A DNA stretch of 44,349 bases from an uncultured Reyranella sp. (GTDB lineage Bacteria > Pseudomonadota > Alphaproteobacteria > Reyranellales > Reyranellaceae). The stretch lies in contig CALDNT010000177.1 of the NCBI GenBank assembly GCA_937915145.1, positions 1-44,349 of the forward strand. Reading direction: 5' to 3'. A model generated the notes under the pieces. The model did no database searches, was not told where the DNA came from, and saw nothing but the letters and a program-made list of their open reading frames with translations. This document shows, piece by piece, positions 3,540 through 27,326 of the stretch. Numbering within the stretch: position 1 is the stretch's first letter; every line of letters starts with the position of its first letter. Both the position numbers and the translations under genes were made by a program.

Positions 3540-4503
3540 GGGCGAAAATCAACTGCGGCATGTACCTGCCGCCGACTCACGTCAACAACACCGGCAGAAT
3601 CGAGCCGATGGCCAGGCCCATCACACAGGAGAGCGGCGGCACGATCGTGTTCGAGATCTTCACCGGCGGATCGGTTGCGAAGGCCAACGCCTCGGTCGCC
3701 ACGGCAGCTGCGATGGGCGCCATGCCTCCCCCCAGCATCGCCTTCGTGATCTTCGGTTGGTACACCGAGACCCCGATCGGCAAGCTACTGATCGCCGGCA
3801 TCTTTCCCGGCCTTCTCAACGCCGGACTGCTCGCCGCGTTCATCATCGGCTACTGCGTCTGGAGGCCCGAAGCCGCACCGCCGCCCGACGAACATCCGAC
3901 CTGGCACGAAAAATTTGCCATCCTCCTTGAGGCATGGCCTATCCCTGCGTTCATCCTCGCGTGATCGGCGGCATCTACAGCGGGCTAACGATCGCAACCG
4001 AGGCCGCTGCGTTCGGCGCCTCCTGTGCTCTGGTCATCGCCTGGCTGCGCAGTGGCCTGACCGCCGAGGACTTCCACCAGAGCATCGTCGACACACTGCA
4101 TTCCGGATTGCCCCAGTTCATGGGCGGCCTGGTCGCAACCATGGATCTCGGTCTCTACGGCGTGATCTTCTTCATGGTGATCATCTACCTGATCCTCGGC
4201 TGCTTCCTCGATCCCATCGGCATCATCCTGATCACGCTGCCGATCCTGCTGCCGATGTGGAAGGCAGTCGGCGCAGACATGATCTGGATGGGCATGCTGG
4301 TCGTGATGCTGCTGGAGATCGGGCTGCTGACTCCGCCGGTCGGCCTCAATGCCTTTGCGGTCAAGACCGTCGTCGGCGACGCCGTGCCGCTGTCGACGAT
4401 CCTCCGCGGCTTGATCTGGTTCATCGCCGTCGATGTCATCGTCGTGGCACTGCTGATCGCCTTTCCGGAGATCAGCCTGTACCTGCCCGGCAAGCTCGAG
4501 TGA
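3540..4503 (+). pseudogene. collapsed TRAP transporter relic: dctP fragment fused to dctM fragments
   Basis: The 5' part (about 3540-3693) reads like the mature start of a DctP receptor: YLPPTHVNNTGRIEPMAR, then GGTIVFEIFTGGSVAKAN. It runs straight into DctM large-permease sequence (SVATAAAMGA, then PPSIAFVIFG, TETPIGKLLIAGIFPGLL), so the rest of dctP, all of dctQ and the start of dctM are missing. Within the DctM part about 28 residues are absent after AAAMGA. A frameshift near 3955-3964 moves the reading from the frame ending PAFILA to the one reading VIGGIYSG. A further stretch of about 20 residues is missing before GLPQFMGG. The C-terminal half (LGCFLDPIGI, TPPVGLNAFAVK) is well preserved. 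It cannot encode a working transporter. Confidence 0.85.
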
Positions 4504-4509
4504 GCTGAC

Positions 4510-5244
4510 CTACTTCTTCTTTTCCGTATAAGCCCCGCCCGACGAAGCGGCGCGCACCTCTGCCGCCGTCTTTGCCTTGCGCAGGAGCACAAGCCGCGCC
4601 GCCTCATCGTCGAGCATGGCGCGCGCGTTCTTCAGAACCGCACCGGCATGCCGCGGCGGAAATTTCACGGCACCGTTCTCATCCATGTGGATCAGTTCGC
4701 CTGGTGCTACGTCCATACCGCCGACCGACACCGGGACGTTGACTGACTGCACCGCCATCTCGCCGTGACCGGCAGTCACTCCACCCAGCAGCAACTGAAA
4801 GTTCAACTTCCGGATCGCATCGACGTCGCGCGACGGCCCGTTGGACAGCATGCCGACGCAGCCCACCGCCATCATGGAACTGATCATCATCTCGCCGGCG
4901 AGCCCCGCTTTTGCCATCAGCTCGGGCGGCCATTTCTGCTGTATCACCAGGACGGTCGGCTTCTTCATGGCGTCGAGCGCGTCGATCACGTCCATGAATG
5001 AGAGCCGGCCGGAATAATTCGGGTCGGGCAGACCGTAGACGCAGGTCACAGCGTATCCCACGATCGCACCCATCTCGGGATAGATGCAGCGGATCGAGGT
5101 ATCGGTATACCAGTTCTCAGTCCATGGATTGTACAGGCCGAGGCACAAAGGGTTCTTCGGGTACGTCGCCACGACGTTTGTGATGGTCGGCGTGTCGATC
5201 TTGCGTAGCTCGGCGAAGAGCTGGTCATCAGAAATCTCGGTCAT
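4510..5244 (-). CDS. RraA / HMG-aldolase-like family protein
   Basis: About 244 residues of the RraA-like fold, which includes 4-hydroxy-4-methyl-2-oxoglutarate aldolases, oxaloacetate decarboxylases and RNase E inhibitors. The conserved metal/substrate region is seen as GCVGMLSNGPSRDVDAI, with the Arg-Asp pair typical of the aldolase members. TPTITNV near the N-terminus also fits. An in-frame ATG at 5253 exists, but AAGGGG (5255-5260) sits directly against it and is correctly spaced (10 nt) for the ATG at 5244, so I prefer 5244. It probably cleaves or decarboxylates a small 2-oxo acid; the substrate is not predictable. It converges on the TRAP relic with a 6-bp gap. Confidence 0.85.
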   Translation of the reverse strand: MTEISDDQLFAELRKIDTPTITNVVATYPKNPLCLGLYNPWTENWYTDTSIRCIYPEMGAIVGYAVTCVYGLPDPNYSGRLSFMDVIDALDAMKKPTVLVIQQKWPPELMAKAGLAGEMMISSMMAVGCVGMLSNGPSRDVDAIRKLNFQLLLGGVTAGHGEMAVQSVNVPVSVGGMDVAPGELIHMDENGAVKFPPRHAGAVLKNARAMLDDEAARLVLLRKAKTAAEVRAASSGGAYTEKKK

Positions 5245-5323
5245 GATGGGCATACCCCTTGATTGGTCCCGTCGTTCTTCGCGCGAATGTCCACGGCAGG
5301 CAAGCGCGCCGACGTGGCTGACG

Positions 5324-6427
5324 TCACGGAACGAAAATCAGGAAGACGAAGGTCGCAAACAGCACGAGATGCACGAAGCCCGGCAGGATGTTGGTGCGAC
5401 CGCCTCCAAACGTCACCAGGCTGATGCCGAATGTCAGGACCAGGAGGATGGTGTCGTGCATGTCGAGGCCGAGTTCCAGCGGCCGGTCCAGCAGCAGCGC
5501 CAGGACACTAACGGCAGGGATGGTCAGTCCGATCGTGGCAAGGGACGATCCCAGGGCAAGGTTCAGGCTTTTCTGCAGCTCGTTGCGCCGCGCCGCACGC
5601 AACGCGGAGAGGGTTTCGGGCAGCAGCACCAGCAACGCCACCAGGAGCCCCACCGCCTCCAGCGGTGCACCCACAGCCGCGACGGCGGATCCAACCGATC
5701 CGGCAAAACTCTTGGCCAGCAGCACGACGGCAACAAGCGCCACGACGAGCAGCACCACGCTTTCCCAGAACCGCCGTGCCGCGAGTACGTCATCTGCCGG
5801 CTCGTCGTCCGGAGCGGCGCCGGTATCCGAGAGGAAATAGTCGCGGTGACGCACTGTTTGGACGTAGAGAAACACGCCGTAGAGGATGAGTGTCGCAATT
5901 CCGACGAAGATGAGCTGCGCAGGGGTGTAGAGCGGTCCCGACACGCTTGTCGTATAGGTCGGCAGAATGAGGGTGAGAGTCGCCAACGGCATCAGGACGA
6001 CGAGATAGGCATTGGTGCCCGGCAGGCGGAAGCCCTGCTCGCCATAGCGCAGACCGCCCACGATCAGGCAAAGCCCGACCAGGCCGTTGCAAACCACCAT
6101 GATTACCGAGAAGACCGTCTCACGGGCCAGTGCCGGGTGGCCGTCACTTGCCAGCATGATCGACAAAATCAGCGCCACCTCGATCACGGTGACAGCGACC
6201 GTCAGCACCAGCGTCCCATAAGGCTCACCCAGGCGATGGGCGATTACGTCGGCATGATGGACCGAGGCGAACACCGCCGCCATCAACATGACGAGCCCAA
6301 GAACTGGAACCGCCACGGCCACGACTGGTGACGCAAAGCCATCCCCGGCGAACCCTGCAACCGCGAGGGCCGCGGCCATGCTGAGCGGTGGGGTCACCCG
6401 CCATAGCAGTCGCTTGCGCGCGCTCAT
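5324..6427 (-). CDS. chaA: ChaA-type sodium-potassium/calcium proton antiporter
   Basis: 367 residues, highly hydrophobic, with about ten or eleven membrane helices. It carries the CaCA/ChaA signatures GEPYGTLVLTVAVTVIEVAL in the first half and LLPETLSALRAARRNELQ with NLALGSSLATIGLTIPAV in the second; the repeated acidic motifs (VIEVAL and PETLSA) are the ion-binding alpha repeats. It should exchange cytoplasmic Na+, K+ or Ca2+ for protons across the inner membrane. The open frame extends upstream to 6532, but GGAGGG six bases before ATG 6427 marks the likely start and gives the usual family length. It lies 74 bp downstream of livM on the same strand. Confidence 0.88.
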   Translation of the reverse strand: MSARKRLLWRVTPPLSMAAALAVAGFAGDGFASPVVAVAVPVLGLVMLMAAVFASVHHADVIAHRLGEPYGTLVLTVAVTVIEVALILSIMLASDGHPALARETVFSVIMVVCNGLVGLCLIVGGLRYGEQGFRLPGTNAYLVVLMPLATLTLILPTYTTSVSGPLYTPAQLIFVGIATLILYGVFLYVQTVRHRDYFLSDTGAAPDDEPADDVLAARRFWESVVLLVVALVAVVLLAKSFAGSVGSAVAAVGAPLEAVGLLVALLVLLPETLSALRAARRNELQKSLNLALGSSLATIGLTIPAVSVLALLLDRPLELGLDMHDTILLVLTFGISLVTFGGGRTNILPGFVHLVLFATFVFLIFVP

Positions 6428-23347: not shown

Positions 23348-23668
23348 CCAGCGGGTGAGACGAAATCCGACGCTCTGCGTCTCGATTTCGATCGCCGCCT
23401 CAAGCTGCAGTTTCAAGGTTCGAGTATGGCCTCGTTGACCGGCGCACGGGTCGAAGCGGTCGGCATGATCCGGGCAGGGTATCCCCTGCCCTGCGCCGGC
23501 ATGCTGCACCGGTCGGTGTTCGGTCGGTGTGCCGGATATGAAGACGTCAATGATGCCGACCGGCTGGGACTTGATTCCGCGATACGCTGGATCGGCAGTC
23601 GAGCGCGTTCATGGCCACCGTTCGCCGCCTGCCAGAACCCGGAACATTTTTTTGCGGTAACCGGATAG
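23348..23668 (+). pseudogene. IS1380-family transposase remnant (N-terminal part)
   Basis: The frame reads LDFDRRLKLQFQGS, then after a scrambled stretch LHRSVFGRCAGYEDVNDADR and DSAIRW. These match the IS1380-type pattern DFDRR(x)KLEFHGS ... LLRQSVFGRLAGYEDVNDAERL ... DPAMRW. There is no start codon at the proper place, the middle is shortened or frameshifted, and the frame ends at 23666 before any DDE residues. No terminal inverted repeats were identified. Confidence 0.75.
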
Positions 23669-23736
23669 CGACGACACGCAATCCGTACTTACCTCCCTAT
23701 CGGAGAATCGGAGTTCACAAGAGACATTCACCGCGT

Positions 23737-23764
23737 TTGGTCATTCAAGTTTGAAAGGTATTTT
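23737..23764 (+). promoter_or_regulatory. possible promoter in front of the hairpin cluster
   Basis: TTGGTC (23737-23742) and TATTTT (23759-23764) are separated by 16 bp, in an AT-richer patch ending just before the first hairpin at 23781. Weak match; proposed only because of its position. Confidence 0.2.
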
Positions 23765-23780
23765 ACACAGTTTTGGCAGT

Positions 23781-23950
23781 GCTCACCGCGTGAGCGCCCG
23801 CACACCACACAGAGTTCCGCCTAGCCCGCCAGCGGCCCCCAGGCCGTTCATCGAAGCCTTCTTCCCACACACAACAAGGCTTCGATAATCCCACACCCAG
23901 GCGGGCTCGCATGGAAGGCTGGTCGTTGCCCACACGACCGGCCTTTCATG
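23781..23950 (+). ncRNA. candidate structured RNA or folded DNA element with nested hairpins
   Basis: Parts, in order: hairpin GCTCAC-cgc-GTGAGC (23781-23795); outer stem AGCCCGCC (23823-23830) with GGCGGGCT (23900-23907); inside it hairpin CGGCC-ccca-GGCCG (23833-23846) and an 11-bp hairpin, arms 23850-23860 and 23876-23886; then a 17-bp hairpin, arms 23910-23926 and 23934-23950. The last has two non-Watson-Crick positions, both G-U pairs if the + strand is transcribed but A/C mismatches on the other strand, favouring + strand RNA. CCCACAC occurs three times, in or next to loops (23864, 23890, 23929). No poly-U end is seen. Function unknown. Confidence 0.4.
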
Positions 23951-24375
23951 GCTATGGCGTCAATTGTCCCACAGGCAACTCCCGGCGCTGCATTGCCCCT
24001 GAACAAAATTGAGAAAGTGACCAAAACACCGCGGCGGCGCCAGGAGCCGATACCGGCACCAGCCAATCGTGGCACGCCCATAAAGATGCGTCTCGGCTTC
24101 CGCGTCACCTGCAATGCGTTCGGGGTGCCGATCCACTCAATGTGCCACATTCGGGGCCGATGGGTTCCCGGCGGACAATGGACGCCGTCGTCGGTCTCGC
24201 CGCGTGGCGGTAGGCGGATTCTGTCAAACATGTGACAGGCAATATCCACAAGATGTAGCGGGATTCGACGCCGAAGTGGGCCCACTTGGGGCGCAACTGC
24301 GTTAATATGCTAAGAGCGGTCTGGTCTGACCGACCCAGCCATGCGTATGCGCTGTGACAATAAGGAGCGGCGTGG
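23951..24375. other. non-coding stretch before the small gene at 24376
   Basis: Open frames exist on both strands (for example 23948-24235 +, 23848-24285 -) but they have no recognisable domain, and the minus one runs through the hairpin cluster, so I do not call them. Visible structure: CTGTCA-aacatg-TGACAG (24222-24239) and the nested palindrome GGTC-TGGTCTGACC-GACC (about 24317-24334) close to the likely promoter of the 24376 gene. Confidence 0.35.
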
Positions 24376-24597
24376 ATGCGTCTCAATCCTCAAGAATTGG
24401 CCGAGATACTGTCAAACGGCGGTTCCCTAAGAATTGGGTCGCAGGGCCTGTCCGATGACCAACTCCTGCATCTTGGCATGTATGCCAAGGGCAGGGGCCT
24501 GCTCACGATCGTCGTGAATTCTCCCTTATCGCACGCGACCATGGTGCAGATCGCCGCGAGCGGCGACGGCGCGGTCACGTTCGACCTGACGGGCTAA
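24376..24597 (+). CDS. 73-residue protein of unknown function
   Basis: A good AAGGAG precedes the ATG by about 8 bases. The protein is compact with alternating helix and strand propensity: LNPQELAEILSNGGSLRIG, LSDDQLLHLGMYAKGRG, LLTIVVNSPLSHATMVQIAA, GAVTFDL. No membrane segment or cysteine. The repeated 'search for a position, then strand' look suggests a small alpha/beta domain. Not recognised. The end overlaps, antisense, the 3' end of the IS1595-like frame by 72 bp. Confidence 0.55.
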   Translation: MRLNPQELAEILSNGGSLRIGSQGLSDDQLLHLGMYAKGRGLLTIVVNSPLSHATMVQIAASGDGAVTFDLTG

Positions 24598-25221
24598 CGC
24601 CTCTGACGCCGCGCTCCTACCCGCAGTGAGGCGCGTGTCCCGAGGCGCGATCGTGGAGGTCAACCGAAGTGCGAACCCTGTGGACTTGGGAATTGCTGGA
24701 AGGGGCCGCGACTTTGCCGGCCGAGGGGAGCCCAATTGGGGCCTCGTTTCGGCGTTTGCCACAGACTTCGCGGTGATATGCTTGTGTAGTGGCGCGGCAG
24801 TGGCCCGCGGCTCGCTCGGCACGACATCGCAGCCCGCAGCGGCCGCCTCGGCCAACCGCCGGACCATCGACGACGCCGTCTTGAAGGAAACGTTCAGGAT
24901 CTGCTGAAGATGGTGCGGCCGCATCGGCCTGGTGCCGCCCTCCGTCAAACAGATCGCCTGCAGCCATTTGTGCACGGGAACGTGGCTGCCACTGAACATC
25001 GTGCCATGCGTAATGGAGAAGATCTTCCGGCAGGCATAGCACTTGTAGGCGCCAAGCCGGGTCGTTGATCCATTCAGCTTGCCGATCCGCTCCCTGCTCG
25101 CGCAACGCGGGCAGCATATTCCGTCCGGCCAGCGCATTTTTTCGAAATACCGCTGCGCGCTCTCTTCATCGGCAAACCACGACAGCGTTTCGCGATCAGC
25201 CCCTTCAAGGTTCGATCCCAT
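24526..25221 (-). CDS. IS1595-like zinc-ribbon/HTH protein lacking the DDE domain
   Basis: From ATG 25221 about 231 residues. The N-terminal 125 match the start of IS1595-family transposases: YFEKMRWPDGICCPRC, a second knuckle YKCYACRKIFSITHGTMF, then SHVPVHKWLQAICL and LQQILNVSFKTASSMVRRL. Transposases continue into a DDE(N) catalytic domain (VDETY..GGK); here a low-complexity Ala/Arg/Pro tail follows instead and runs antisense through the end of the 24376 gene, so the natural C-terminus is doubtful. Either a truncated transposase or a domesticated DNA-binding fragment. The frame is open upstream to 25365. Confidence 0.6.
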   Translation of the reverse strand: MGSNLEGADRETLSWFADEESAQRYFEKMRWPDGICCPRCASRERIGKLNGSTTRLGAYKCYACRKIFSITHGTMFSGSHVPVHKWLQAICLTEGGTRPMRPHHLQQILNVSFKTASSMVRRLAEAAAAGCDVVPSEPRATAAPLHKHITAKSVANAETRPQLGSPRPAKSRPLPAIPKSTGFALRLTSTIAPRDTRLTAGRSAASEALARQVERDRAVAARGDLHHGRVR

Positions 25222-25272
25222 CACCACCCTCGCACCCAACGTCTGCTCGAACACGTTCGAGCCCCCAGAAAC

Positions 25273-25302
25273 CTGTCCACGCCTTCCCACGGGTGTGGAC
25301 AG
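25273..25302. repeat. perfect inverted repeat upstream of the IS1595-like gene
   Basis: CTGTCCAC (25273-25280) and GTGGACAG (25295-25302), 14-nt spacer. It lies 52 bp before the likely start of the leftward IS1595-like gene and may be an operator or part of an old element end. Confidence 0.4.
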
Positions 25303-25350
25303 TTCGCAGGGATTGAACGCTTTCCGGCGTCGCAAATACAGAGAAATCGG

Positions 25351-25377
25351 GTTGAATATTTTCAATGTAAATTCAAC
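25351..25377. repeat. AT-rich inverted repeat, candidate operator
   Basis: GTTGAAT (25351-25357) and ATTCAAC (25371-25377) with an inner TTGAA/TTCAA. AT-rich in an otherwise GC-rich region, between the leftward IS1595-like gene and the rightward kinase gene, so it could serve either promoter. Confidence 0.35.
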
Positions 25378-25694
25378 TAGCTGTTTGCCATCGCAGCGTT
25401 CGGGCGCCGCTTGATGTGTCCTTGCACAAGATCAAGGACGGCCGGTAAGAGATTGAATCACACGGAATTTGAGGTTCCGTCGACCCGTCATTCCACCATT
25501 CCGAAAGTGGTGCCGCGACACCGTCGCCGCCATCGGTGGCGGTGTCTCGACTTTTGTAACGTTTGGATGTACGTAATTTATCCACAGACATTTGCACAGT
25601 GCGAGGTCGCACGCGATGTGCCACCGCCCCCCATCAAAGGGGTCGACGACCGATAAGGACGACACGTTTCTGTTGTGCACGGGAGGCAACAGAC
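25378..25694. other. upstream region of the kinase gene with a hairpin and a DnaA-box match
   Basis: No gene seen. GACACCG (25517-25523) pairs with CGGTGTC (25540-25546) around a further GC-rich stem, forming a strong hairpin followed by CGACTTTTG. TTATCCACA at 25578-25586 is an exact match to the DnaA-box consensus. The frame of the kinase is open back to 25563 but the ribosome site at 25681-25686 sets the start later. Confidence 0.35.
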
Positions 25695-27326
25695 ATGACC
25701 GGAGAACCGGCTGGGAAGTCGGATCGTATCGACCGGACCGGACATTACTCGGCGCTGGCCGCCGGAGTCATGATCGATCGATACAGGGTGGTCTCGGTGC
25801 TCGGGCAGGGTGGCTTCGGCATCACCTATCGCTGCCGCGACACACAGCTTCATCGCGATGTGGCGGTCAAGGAATACCTGCCGGCGGCGCTGGCAGTGCG
25901 CCAGGACGATCGCGCGGTGCTGCCGCGATCGACCGAGGTGTCAAAGGATTTCGTCTGGGGCCGCGGCCGCTTCCTCGATGAGGTCCGCGCGATGGCACTG
26001 CTTGGTGACGCACCGGCAGTGGTGCGCGTCTACGATTTCCTCGAGGCGCACGGTACGGCCTATGTCGTGATGCAGCTGCTCGAGGGTGAGACGCTGGAGC
26101 GACGGCTGCAGCGTGAAGAGCGACTGTCTCAGGCCATGATCGAGCGCATCCTGCAGCCGATGCTTGCCGGTCTCGACCGAATACATTCCGTGGGCTGCCT
26201 GCACCGTGACATCAAACCGGCGAACATCATGCTCGCGCCGGACGGCTCGCCGACCCTTATCGACTTCGGCGCCTCGCGCATGGCCGTGGCCGGCCGCTCG
26301 CCGGCGATGACGGCCGTCTTCACGCCGGGCTATGCGGCGCCCGAGCAGTCGACGTCGGGCCGGCAAGGGCCGTGGACCGACGTCTATGGGCTCGCCGCCA
26401 CGCTTTACACCTGCGTCAATGGCACGCCGCCGCCCGGCGTCATGGACCGCGTCTTCGAGGGCGTTCCGGTATCCTCACTCGAAACCACCGGCGAGGATTA
26501 TTCACCGGGCCTGCTGGCCGCCATCGAGGCCGGCCTCGTGCTCCGGGCCGAGGCGAGGCCCCGCAGCATCGATGCCTGGCGCAAAGTCCTGGCGACCGGT
26601 CTGTGGGCCGCGCCCGTCGAGGCACTGCCCGACGCGGTGCCCATAGCGGCGCCCGTTTCGACGTCCGCACCGGCGCCGGCACCGAAGCCATCGCGTCCGA
26701 TCGTGCCGGGATTGCCCCGGCGACGCCAGCCAGCGGCACTCGCGGTGGCGGCATCAATCGCCGTCGTCGCCCTGGCCGGCATCGCCATTGCCCTCGTCGC
26801 GCCGGGAGTGCCGGCCGAGCGCGCCGGTCGCGACGTGGTGACGGCGAAACTCAACGAAGTCGCCGCCCAGCAGGCGGTGGTGGAGGCGGCGGCCCGCGAC
26901 GCGCAACTCCAGGAACAACTGGCGGCCCGGGCGATCGAGGAGGCCCGACGCGACGGCGAGCAGGCCGAAAGCAACCTCGGGCTGTCCCGCCGCGACCGAC
27001 AGAAGCTCCAGGTCGCGCTGGCGGCGGCGGGCTTCGACGTCGGCGGCGCCGATGGCGCGTTTGGTCCGCGCTCGCGCGAGGCCATCGCCGACTGGCAGCG
27101 CAGGCGCGGCGATATCGCGACCGGCTTCCTGACGGCCACGCAGAAGGCCGCCCTGGTGGAAGAAAACGTAGCCGCCATCGACCGCTGGGACGCGGCGCAG
27201 AGGCTGGCCTACGTCCGCTACGAAGAAGCGCGATGGCGCGCCCGAATCGAAGCAGAGGAGCGGCTTCACCGGCAACAGGCCACGATATCGCCGCCGCGCA
27301 CGGGCTGGCGATGGCCGTGGCAATGA
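25695..27326 (+). CDS. membrane Ser/Thr protein kinase with peptidoglycan-binding-like domain
   Basis: 543 residues from ATG 25695; GGGAGG precedes it by 8 bases. The Hanks-type kinase domain (about 30-300) is complete: Gly loop GQGGFGITY, Lys near 58 in VAVKEYLP, catalytic HRDIKPANIML near 170, DFGAS near 189 and the APE-equivalent APEQ. A Pro/Ala-rich linker is followed by one helix (about 345-370), a charged coiled-coil (about 385-425) and a PG_binding_1-type repeat (about 430-485; LQVALAAAGFDVGGADGAFG, then AIADWQRRRG). The layout suggests a cytoplasmic kinase coupled to the cell wall, as in PASTA kinases but with a different sensor. No phosphatase gene is adjacent. Confidence 0.9.
   Translation: MTGEPAGKSDRIDRTGHYSALAAGVMIDRYRVVSVLGQGGFGITYRCRDTQLHRDVAVKEYLPAALAVRQDDRAVLPRSTEVSKDFVWGRGRFLDEVRAMALLGDAPAVVRVYDFLEAHGTAYVVMQLLEGETLERRLQREERLSQAMIERILQPMLAGLDRIHSVGCLHRDIKPANIMLAPDGSPTLIDFGASRMAVAGRSPAMTAVFTPGYAAPEQSTSGRQGPWTDVYGLAATLYTCVNGTPPPGVMDRVFEGVPVSSLETTGEDYSPGLLAAIEAGLVLRAEARPRSIDAWRKVLATGLWAAPVEALPDAVPIAAPVSTSAPAPAPKPSRPIVPGLPRRRQPAALAVAASIAVVALAGIAIALVAPGVPAERAGRDVVTAKLNEVAAQQAVVEAAARDAQLQEQLAARAIEEARRDGEQAESNLGLSRRDRQKLQVALAAAGFDVGGADGAFGPRSREAIADWQRRRGDIATGFLTATQKAALVEENVAAIDRWDAAQRLAYVRYEEARWRARIEAEERLHRQQATISPPRTGWRWPWQ

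Follow-up and report, generated by a model that had tools for sequence, protein, structure and literature searches.

The hairpins at positions 23781–23950 of the window (the whole 44,349-nucleotide stretch of an uncultured Reyranella genome analyzed here) are, by sequence comparison, a divergent, strain-specific extra copy of a Reyranella small-RNA gene. The RNA family is apparently undescribed and is carried by nearly all Reyranella beside a regulator gene. We think it rather probable that the element arose by duplication of a trans-acting sRNA resembling LhrC and has since diverged, and that this sRNA would have its own promoter under the control of a PraR-like protein and loops that bind Shine-Dalgarno (SD) sites. 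The family matches no Rfam model and belongs to a genus for which no sRNA work was found in the open-licence literature.

Fold and conservation of the RNA

A preliminary description of the window, made from the letters alone, had reported five stems of 6, 8, 5, 11 and 17 bp, two of them nested in the 8-bp stem, and CCCACAC at 23864, 23890 and 23929. All five stems and all three motifs were located at these positions. The features are as follows:

23630–23713, no strand assigned: place of the standard promoter; operator and -10-like element not recognizable in the window copy (alignment, operator scan)
23714–23950, + strand: extent resembling the predicted standard RNA transcript, including its predicted 5′ end (alignment with loci L002 and L004; promoter spacing in 57 loci)
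23781–23795, + strand: 5′ accessory hairpin, GCTCAC/GTGAGC, 6 bp, beyond the conserved core (fold and alignment)
23823–23907, + strand: outer stem P1, 8 bp, arms 23823–23830 and 23900–23907, enclosing P2 and P3 (fold; both-side changes in 4 of 8 pairs)
23831–23848, + strand: hairpin P2, C-rich loop (fold; both-side changes in 2 of 5 core pairs)
23850–23886, + strand: hairpin P3, 11 bp, loop holding CTTCCCACACAC (fold and alignment)
23864–23870, + strand: CCCACAC in the P3 loop (kept in 57 of 60 aligned copies)
23890–23896, + strand: CCCACAC in the single-stranded joining segment (kept in 53 of 60 aligned copies)
23910–23950, + strand: terminator-like hairpin, 17 bp, two pairs G-U, without a T-run 3′ of it in the window copy (fold)
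23929–23935, + strand: CCCACAC in the terminal loop (1 of 60 aligned copies, the window copy only)
23951–24017, no strand assigned: 3′ flank in which likeness to the standard locus persists (alignment with L002 and L004)
23848–24285, − strand: open reading frame (ORF) overlapping the RNA copy

In the fold of the window copy, P2 has five core pairs, or seven counting its A-U and G-U ends. The + strand of 23771–23960 has a minimum free energy of −89.2 kcal/mol (z = −7.49), and none of 200 dinucleotide shuffles is as low; the − strand reaches z = −3.56, also with no shuffle as low. The difference between the two z-scores indicates that reading the + strand as RNA is right, and the fold bears out the suggestion that the 17-pair stem keeps all its pairs, two of them G-U, in the RNA of this strand. 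The raw energy is unexceptional in the GC-rich window, where 48 of 442 stretches of 170 nt are as low, so the weight rests on the excess over shuffles and on conservation.

Conservation outside the strain had been proposed as a check. A DNA search matched the element in 58 of the 65 Reyranella genomes, its own included. The covariance model R2 was positive in 59 of 75 family genomes, comprising 58 of 65 in the genus, the single sister-genus genome (G070, with two RNA copies) and none of nine in three other genera. At the level of the order the model was positive in 59 of 76 genomes, and in a sample of the class in 4 of 385, all Reyranella, or one genus of 276; with strict filters and at most eight candidates per genome scored, the RNA was found in none of the other 275 genera. 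In a pattern search, 40 records matched; their titles read Reyranella, Enhydrobacter aerosaccus, or unclassified Alphaproteobacteria, Rhodospirillales, Rhodospirillaceae or Proteobacteria. Many RNA-bearing genomes hold more than one copy.

The comparative analyses covered 61 loci, with 60 copies in the motif alignment. A first RNAalifold model (R1) lacked P2 and P3 because the aligner had shifted both hairpins, and R2, the structure named here, was therefore built from 24 loci picked for good alignment, with 37 left out. In these 24 loci, 98.8% of the cells hold a standard pair (97.3% in shuffles), six pairs show double changes (1.4 in shuffles), and 12 cells do so (1.6 in shuffles), values reached by none of 500 shuffles. 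The count of further pair types, 14, is not clearly above the 12.3 in shuffles, 48 of 500 of which reach it. Double changes are confined to P1 and P2; P3 and the terminal hairpin are nearly invariant. The preliminary description had named stems broken without compensation as evidence against the element; what we observe are compensatory changes in P1 and P2. The terminal hairpin is present in all 60 aligned copies, its loop reading CCCCAA in 57. The longest T-run behind it measures 3–5 in 50 of the 59 full-tail copies and 1–2 in nine, including the window copy, in which a terminator scan found no terminator.

Comparison thus shows a conserved RNA in which a P1-P2-P3 core of about 130 nt is combined with C-rich unpaired segments and followed by a terminal hairpin; from its predicted start the RNA measures up to about 240 nt. 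Among the identities first offered, that of a small RNA is well supported by conservation, compensation and a promoter box (see below). The other two, a mobile-element end or a recombination site, found no support: the order relative to a TetR-like gene is fixed in 56 of 61 loci. The RNA had no match in plasmid, phage and viral collections, and no direct repeats of at least 12 nt occur within 23500–24400. A protein-coding stretch was rejected, as the core varies from 120 to 134 nt over 60 copies, with single-base indels; the ORF at 23948–24232 (+ strand) has no Pfam match. A known Rfam family was likewise rejected, in agreement with the earlier remark that the element fits no recognized class: the window has no match at the gathering threshold, and in three loci no match at E up to 5 overlaps the RNA.

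Three ORFs lie downstream of the RNA copy in the window. A 74-aa ORF about 0.4 kb past it (24373–24597, + strand) has no Pfam match. A 279-aa ORF 0.6 kb downstream (24526–25365, − strand) contains an IS1595-type transposase zinc-ribbon domain, and there is no sign that it moved the RNA copy. The third, of 587 aa (25563–27326, + strand), joins a protein kinase domain to a peptidoglycan-binding domain.

Promoter and neighbors of the standard locus

Standard copies of the RNA have a predicted promoter of their own, consisting of a conserved box and a -10-like element, in 57 of 61 loci. Boxes resembling ATATGCnnTTTTGCAnnTnAC precede the first RNA (RNA1) in these 57 loci and the TetR-like gene in 56 of 61. 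Beyond the box, the best match to the -10-like TGTTAAGT is found at 36–38 nt in 54 of 57 RNA1 promoters and at 36 nt in 51 of 56 TetR promoters. In 10 loci the box is just 56–66 nt from the core; here, the RNA would start near P1 and the 5′ accessory hairpin would be missing.

In 56 of 61 loci the TetR-like gene shares the strand of the RNA and starts 223–315 nt past its core; of the remaining five, one is the window copy, two are extra copies and two lie at contig ends. Its product scores 22.8 bits against Pfam TetR_N, just below the cut-off of 24. An ortholog (at least 65% identity) is present in 56 of the 58 RNA-bearing genus genomes, and in the other two the RNA lies at a contig end. Among 16 family genomes without the RNA, an ortholog occurs only in G058, where the contig ends about 200 nt upstream of the match. 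In 33 of 58 genomes, the TetR gene has a sibling RNA of like layout at its end, some 1 kb distant from the first RNA. The 5′ arm of its P1 is TetR coding sequence just ahead of the stop codon, which is itself contained in the P2 loop. The three siblings folded have z-scores of −8.5 to −11.3. Covariation in the sibling is slight: among 21 siblings, double changes affect one pair, where shuffles give 0.6, and sliding by +2 yields an equal score.

In 56 of 61 loci the RNA lies 0.22–0.32 kb upstream of the TetR-like gene and is encoded on its strand, which raises the question whether the RNA is a cis-acting leader (attenuator or riboswitch) of that gene. We consider this very improbable. The RNA is closed by its terminal hairpin, and the TetR gene has an operator and a -10-like promoter of its own between the RNA and the start codon. 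The copies in L001, L060 and L061 have no TetR gene in the flanks examined, the list of TetR orthologs contains none beside the extra copies of G031, G036 and G047, and the sibling RNA lies at the 3′ end of the gene. Based on the extra copies without TetR and the separate TetR promoter, a riboswitch or leader was rejected. We propose that the RNA would be made from its own promoter, and that the 3′ end of the TetR mRNA would give rise to the sibling.

The RNA and TetR promoters have an operator, GATATGCNNNNTTGCA, in common. It is rare elsewhere in these genomes. In the window's genome the pattern occurs at three sites: one belongs to RNA1, one to TetR, and the third precedes an XRE gene near metK, which we provisionally take to be PraR-like. 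The pattern is found in 61 of 65 genus genomes, mostly at two to three sites each and at most at six; the reversed pattern, used as a control, gives one site over all 65, and none of 400 random window stretches comes within two mismatches of the operator. Some further RNA copies also carry the operator. At least 12 sites, two of them in G047, lie away from RNA1 and TetR and have not been traced to the XRE gene. In G041, which has no RNA, the pattern precedes the gene of a small protein, behind which lies an ORF of at least 717 aa (L152 from about 1862), possibly another target of the regulator.

The XRE protein contains an HTH_3 domain, and in G006 its gene lies between lnt and metK. The name PraR-like is provisional and follows from this domain and the gene order; a PDB search with the protein returned other HTH proteins only. 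Where both are on one contig, the gene is 4–8 kb from RNA1. Its promoter has the operator within two mismatches in 12 of 13 testable genus genomes, compared with none of 10 genomes outside the genus and none of six paralogs. No site precedes the PraR-like gene in G041 or in the sister genus (G070), which has both RNA and TetR; this speaks against PraR control. Three genomes, G055, G028 and G032, keep the operator at the PraR-like gene in the absence of both the RNA and a TetR ortholog, which points to the PraR-like protein as the binder. This protein is the likely controller of the RNA and TetR promoters through the predicted operator they share. Alternatively, the TetR-like protein itself may bind the operator, a reading we regard as possible but doubtful. 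The RNA, the TetR gene and both operators co-occur, and the sister genus has an operator at the RNA and none at the PraR-like gene, as would suit TetR binding; such binding does not account for the sites that persist in the three genomes lacking a TetR ortholog, and the operator contains TTGCA, close to the TTGCAA of PraR in R. leguminosarum.

In the available text of three studies (PMC4149787, PMC5527310, PMC10688885), TTGCAA is the motif reported at PraR promoters in R. leguminosarum, that of praR itself included. It disagrees with the PraR consensus from SELEX, CAAC-N5-GTTG, and the disagreement among published sites also speaks against PraR control here. The Reyranella regulator resembles the PraR/PhrR/CdxA proteins described there in being an XRE regulator with a neighborhood conserved in the class. 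It differs in its operator, which is longer and seen only in Reyranella and the sister genus. No sRNA target of PraR, PhrR or CdxA is reported in the searched parts of these papers, which also do not name metK beside praR, and no paper joining PraR, an sRNA and Alphaproteobacteria was found in the open-licence literature. The RNA may connect riboregulation with a regulator that is broadly conserved in Alphaproteobacteria. In Rhizobium, attachment proteins are affected by PraR, according to the title of one of these studies (PMC4149787).

In L149, metK and the RNA are separated by an ABC transporter gene (3832–6030). The ABC transporter of Reyranella massiliensis (L109 6193–7986) scores best with type I secretion models, below their cut-offs.

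Proposed pairing of the loops and related systems

The C-rich loops of the RNA probably act by pairing with mRNAs. In our proposal, the redundant CCC-containing loops would bind the G-rich ribosome-binding sites of target mRNAs in the manner of LhrC. As a weak test, pairing was analyzed in the 1134 start regions predicted over 1.2 Mb of a single genome (G047); the start caller shows a clear ribosome-binding signal and favors certain SD words, including GGGAG. All four unpaired segments pair better with start regions than with upstream or internal ones. Compared with permuted loops, this preference stands out for the P2 loop, equalled by 0 of 12 permutations, and for the terminal loop, equalled by 1 of 12; the P3 loop and the joining segment, equalled by 3 of 12 and 4 of 12, do not exceed permuted sequences. 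In start regions, all four real segments form fewer strong pairings than the permuted mean (131 versus 234, 95 versus 144, 259 versus 302 and 225 versus 346). GGGAG, GGGGA and GGGAA are enriched near starts, an enrichment to be read with the caller's preference for SD words, GGGAG included, in mind; TGTGG and GTGTG are not enriched near the G047 starts. With two of the four segments above permuted controls and TGTGG and GTGTG unenriched, pairing of the loops with SD sites is plausible only. The search over the 1134 regions gave candidates and no clear winner.

The start regions of the PraR-like gene (14 loci) and of the TetR gene (44 loci) are poor partners of the loops. That of TetR is among the least complementary, with a mean percentile of 0.82–0.93 over the 44 loci, and six examples contain no G-rich site.

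We also considered whether the RNA is a decoy, whose CCCACAC and CCCCA single strands titrate an RNA-binding protein as Csr/Rsm sponges do, with C-rich sites in their place. Conservation of the unpaired repeats is high, at 57, 53 and 57 of 60 copies, they include ACAC, whose complement is unenriched at start regions, and the frequent occurrence of more than one copy per genome would also suit a sponge. There is no candidate protein, however, and the P2 and terminal loops do prefer start regions; we judge a decoy unlikely and favor pairing with mRNAs.

The closest parallel is the LhrC family of Listeria monocytogenes (PMC4132741), a multicopy sRNA with its copies under one regulatory system. 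According to the available text, its UCCC motif recurs in loop A, a single strand and the terminator loop and blocks the Shine-Dalgarno site. A redundant C-rich motif of this type, in loops and a single strand, is present in the Reyranella RNA in 57, 53 and 57 of 60 copies. Unlike LhrC as described there, the Reyranella RNA has no Rfam match, comes from another phylum, has other stems and a motif reading TTCCCACAC/CCCCA, and has one sibling at the end of a gene. SmelA075/SmelA099 of Rhizobiales are alphaproteobacterial sRNAs that also repeat a C-rich motif in several loops; that motif, given as CCUCCUCCC in the available part of PMC3927594, occurs in none of the 60 Reyranella copies. The CcsR1-4 RNAs of Rhodobacter sphaeroides derive from the 3′ UTR of ccaF1, a small RNA-binding protein gene (PMC8625941, available text), and are thus sibling sRNAs from a 3′ UTR, as we propose for the Reyranella sibling. 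They differ in being RNAs processed from one 3′ UTR, whereas Reyranella has a stand-alone gene and one 3′ sibling; the likeness is one without homology shown.

We tentatively suggest, while regarding it as somewhat improbable, that these components form a module of new architecture. A PraR-like XRE regulator would act on an operator found mainly at its own gene, the sRNA gene and the TetR gene, and the TetR mRNA would carry another version of the sRNA at its end, one stem arm lying in the last codons. One signal would then yield the regulator and two sibling RNAs, the second tied to transcription of the full gene, and the TetR start region would be as if shielded from the sibling RNA of its own gene. 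With two RNAs flanking a single gene and, as a rule, two to three operator sites in each genome, the circuit is small and testable.

The divergent copy in the window

The window's genome has three clear copies of the RNA, the window copy among them. A second DNA match in other genus genomes reaches 81.5 bits at most, not near the strength of the window copy. The likeness of this copy to the standard locus extends from about 23714, the predicted start region of the standard gene, to about 24017; as it continues through 23951–24017, the duplication was larger than the transcript.

The upstream elements are lost. The best operator match in the window copy has four mismatches, the chance level (random stretches mostly have 4–5), and the -10-like element is gone in the alignment with L002 and L004. 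A weak promoter-like pair had been proposed just upstream. This proposal is not borne out, as a scan detected no sigma-70-like pair there and its sole + strand match is inside the element. The loss of operator and -10-like element makes the activity of the window copy doubtful; with the promoter lost and the fold kept, the copy would be either transcribed from elsewhere or decaying. The missing T-run counts less against it, since the run is also short in 8 of 58 other copies.

Compared with L003, the window copy is changed at 2 of 68 paired and 13 of 60 unpaired positions, and both paired changes keep G-U pairs (hypergeometric 0.0010; 0.0002–0.0029 over four references). A like bias is seen in most of the 12 standard copies compared, with L014 showing the reverse. 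The P2, P3 and terminal loops of the window copy are changed. Because the changes avoid paired positions, selection seems to have maintained the fold for some time, during which these three loops changed. The question is whether the copy is now a non-functional relic of the duplication, its motifs merely inherited, and here we find the balance nearly even. The lost operator and -10-like element, the changed loops and the lack of a second DNA match of near strength in other genus genomes are all consistent with a relic; neutral decay, in contrast, would not avoid paired positions (2 of 68 versus 13 of 60). The odd hairpin set of the window thus becomes an sRNA duplication with its loops changed and its stems kept.

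Six extra copies were found in other genomes. Those in G031, G036, G047 and G070 have an exact operator 142–148 nt upstream, the copy in G052 has one with two mismatches, and the copy in G060 has none. The G060 copy (L148 7181–7504) starts 124 nt behind a tRNA-Glu gene.
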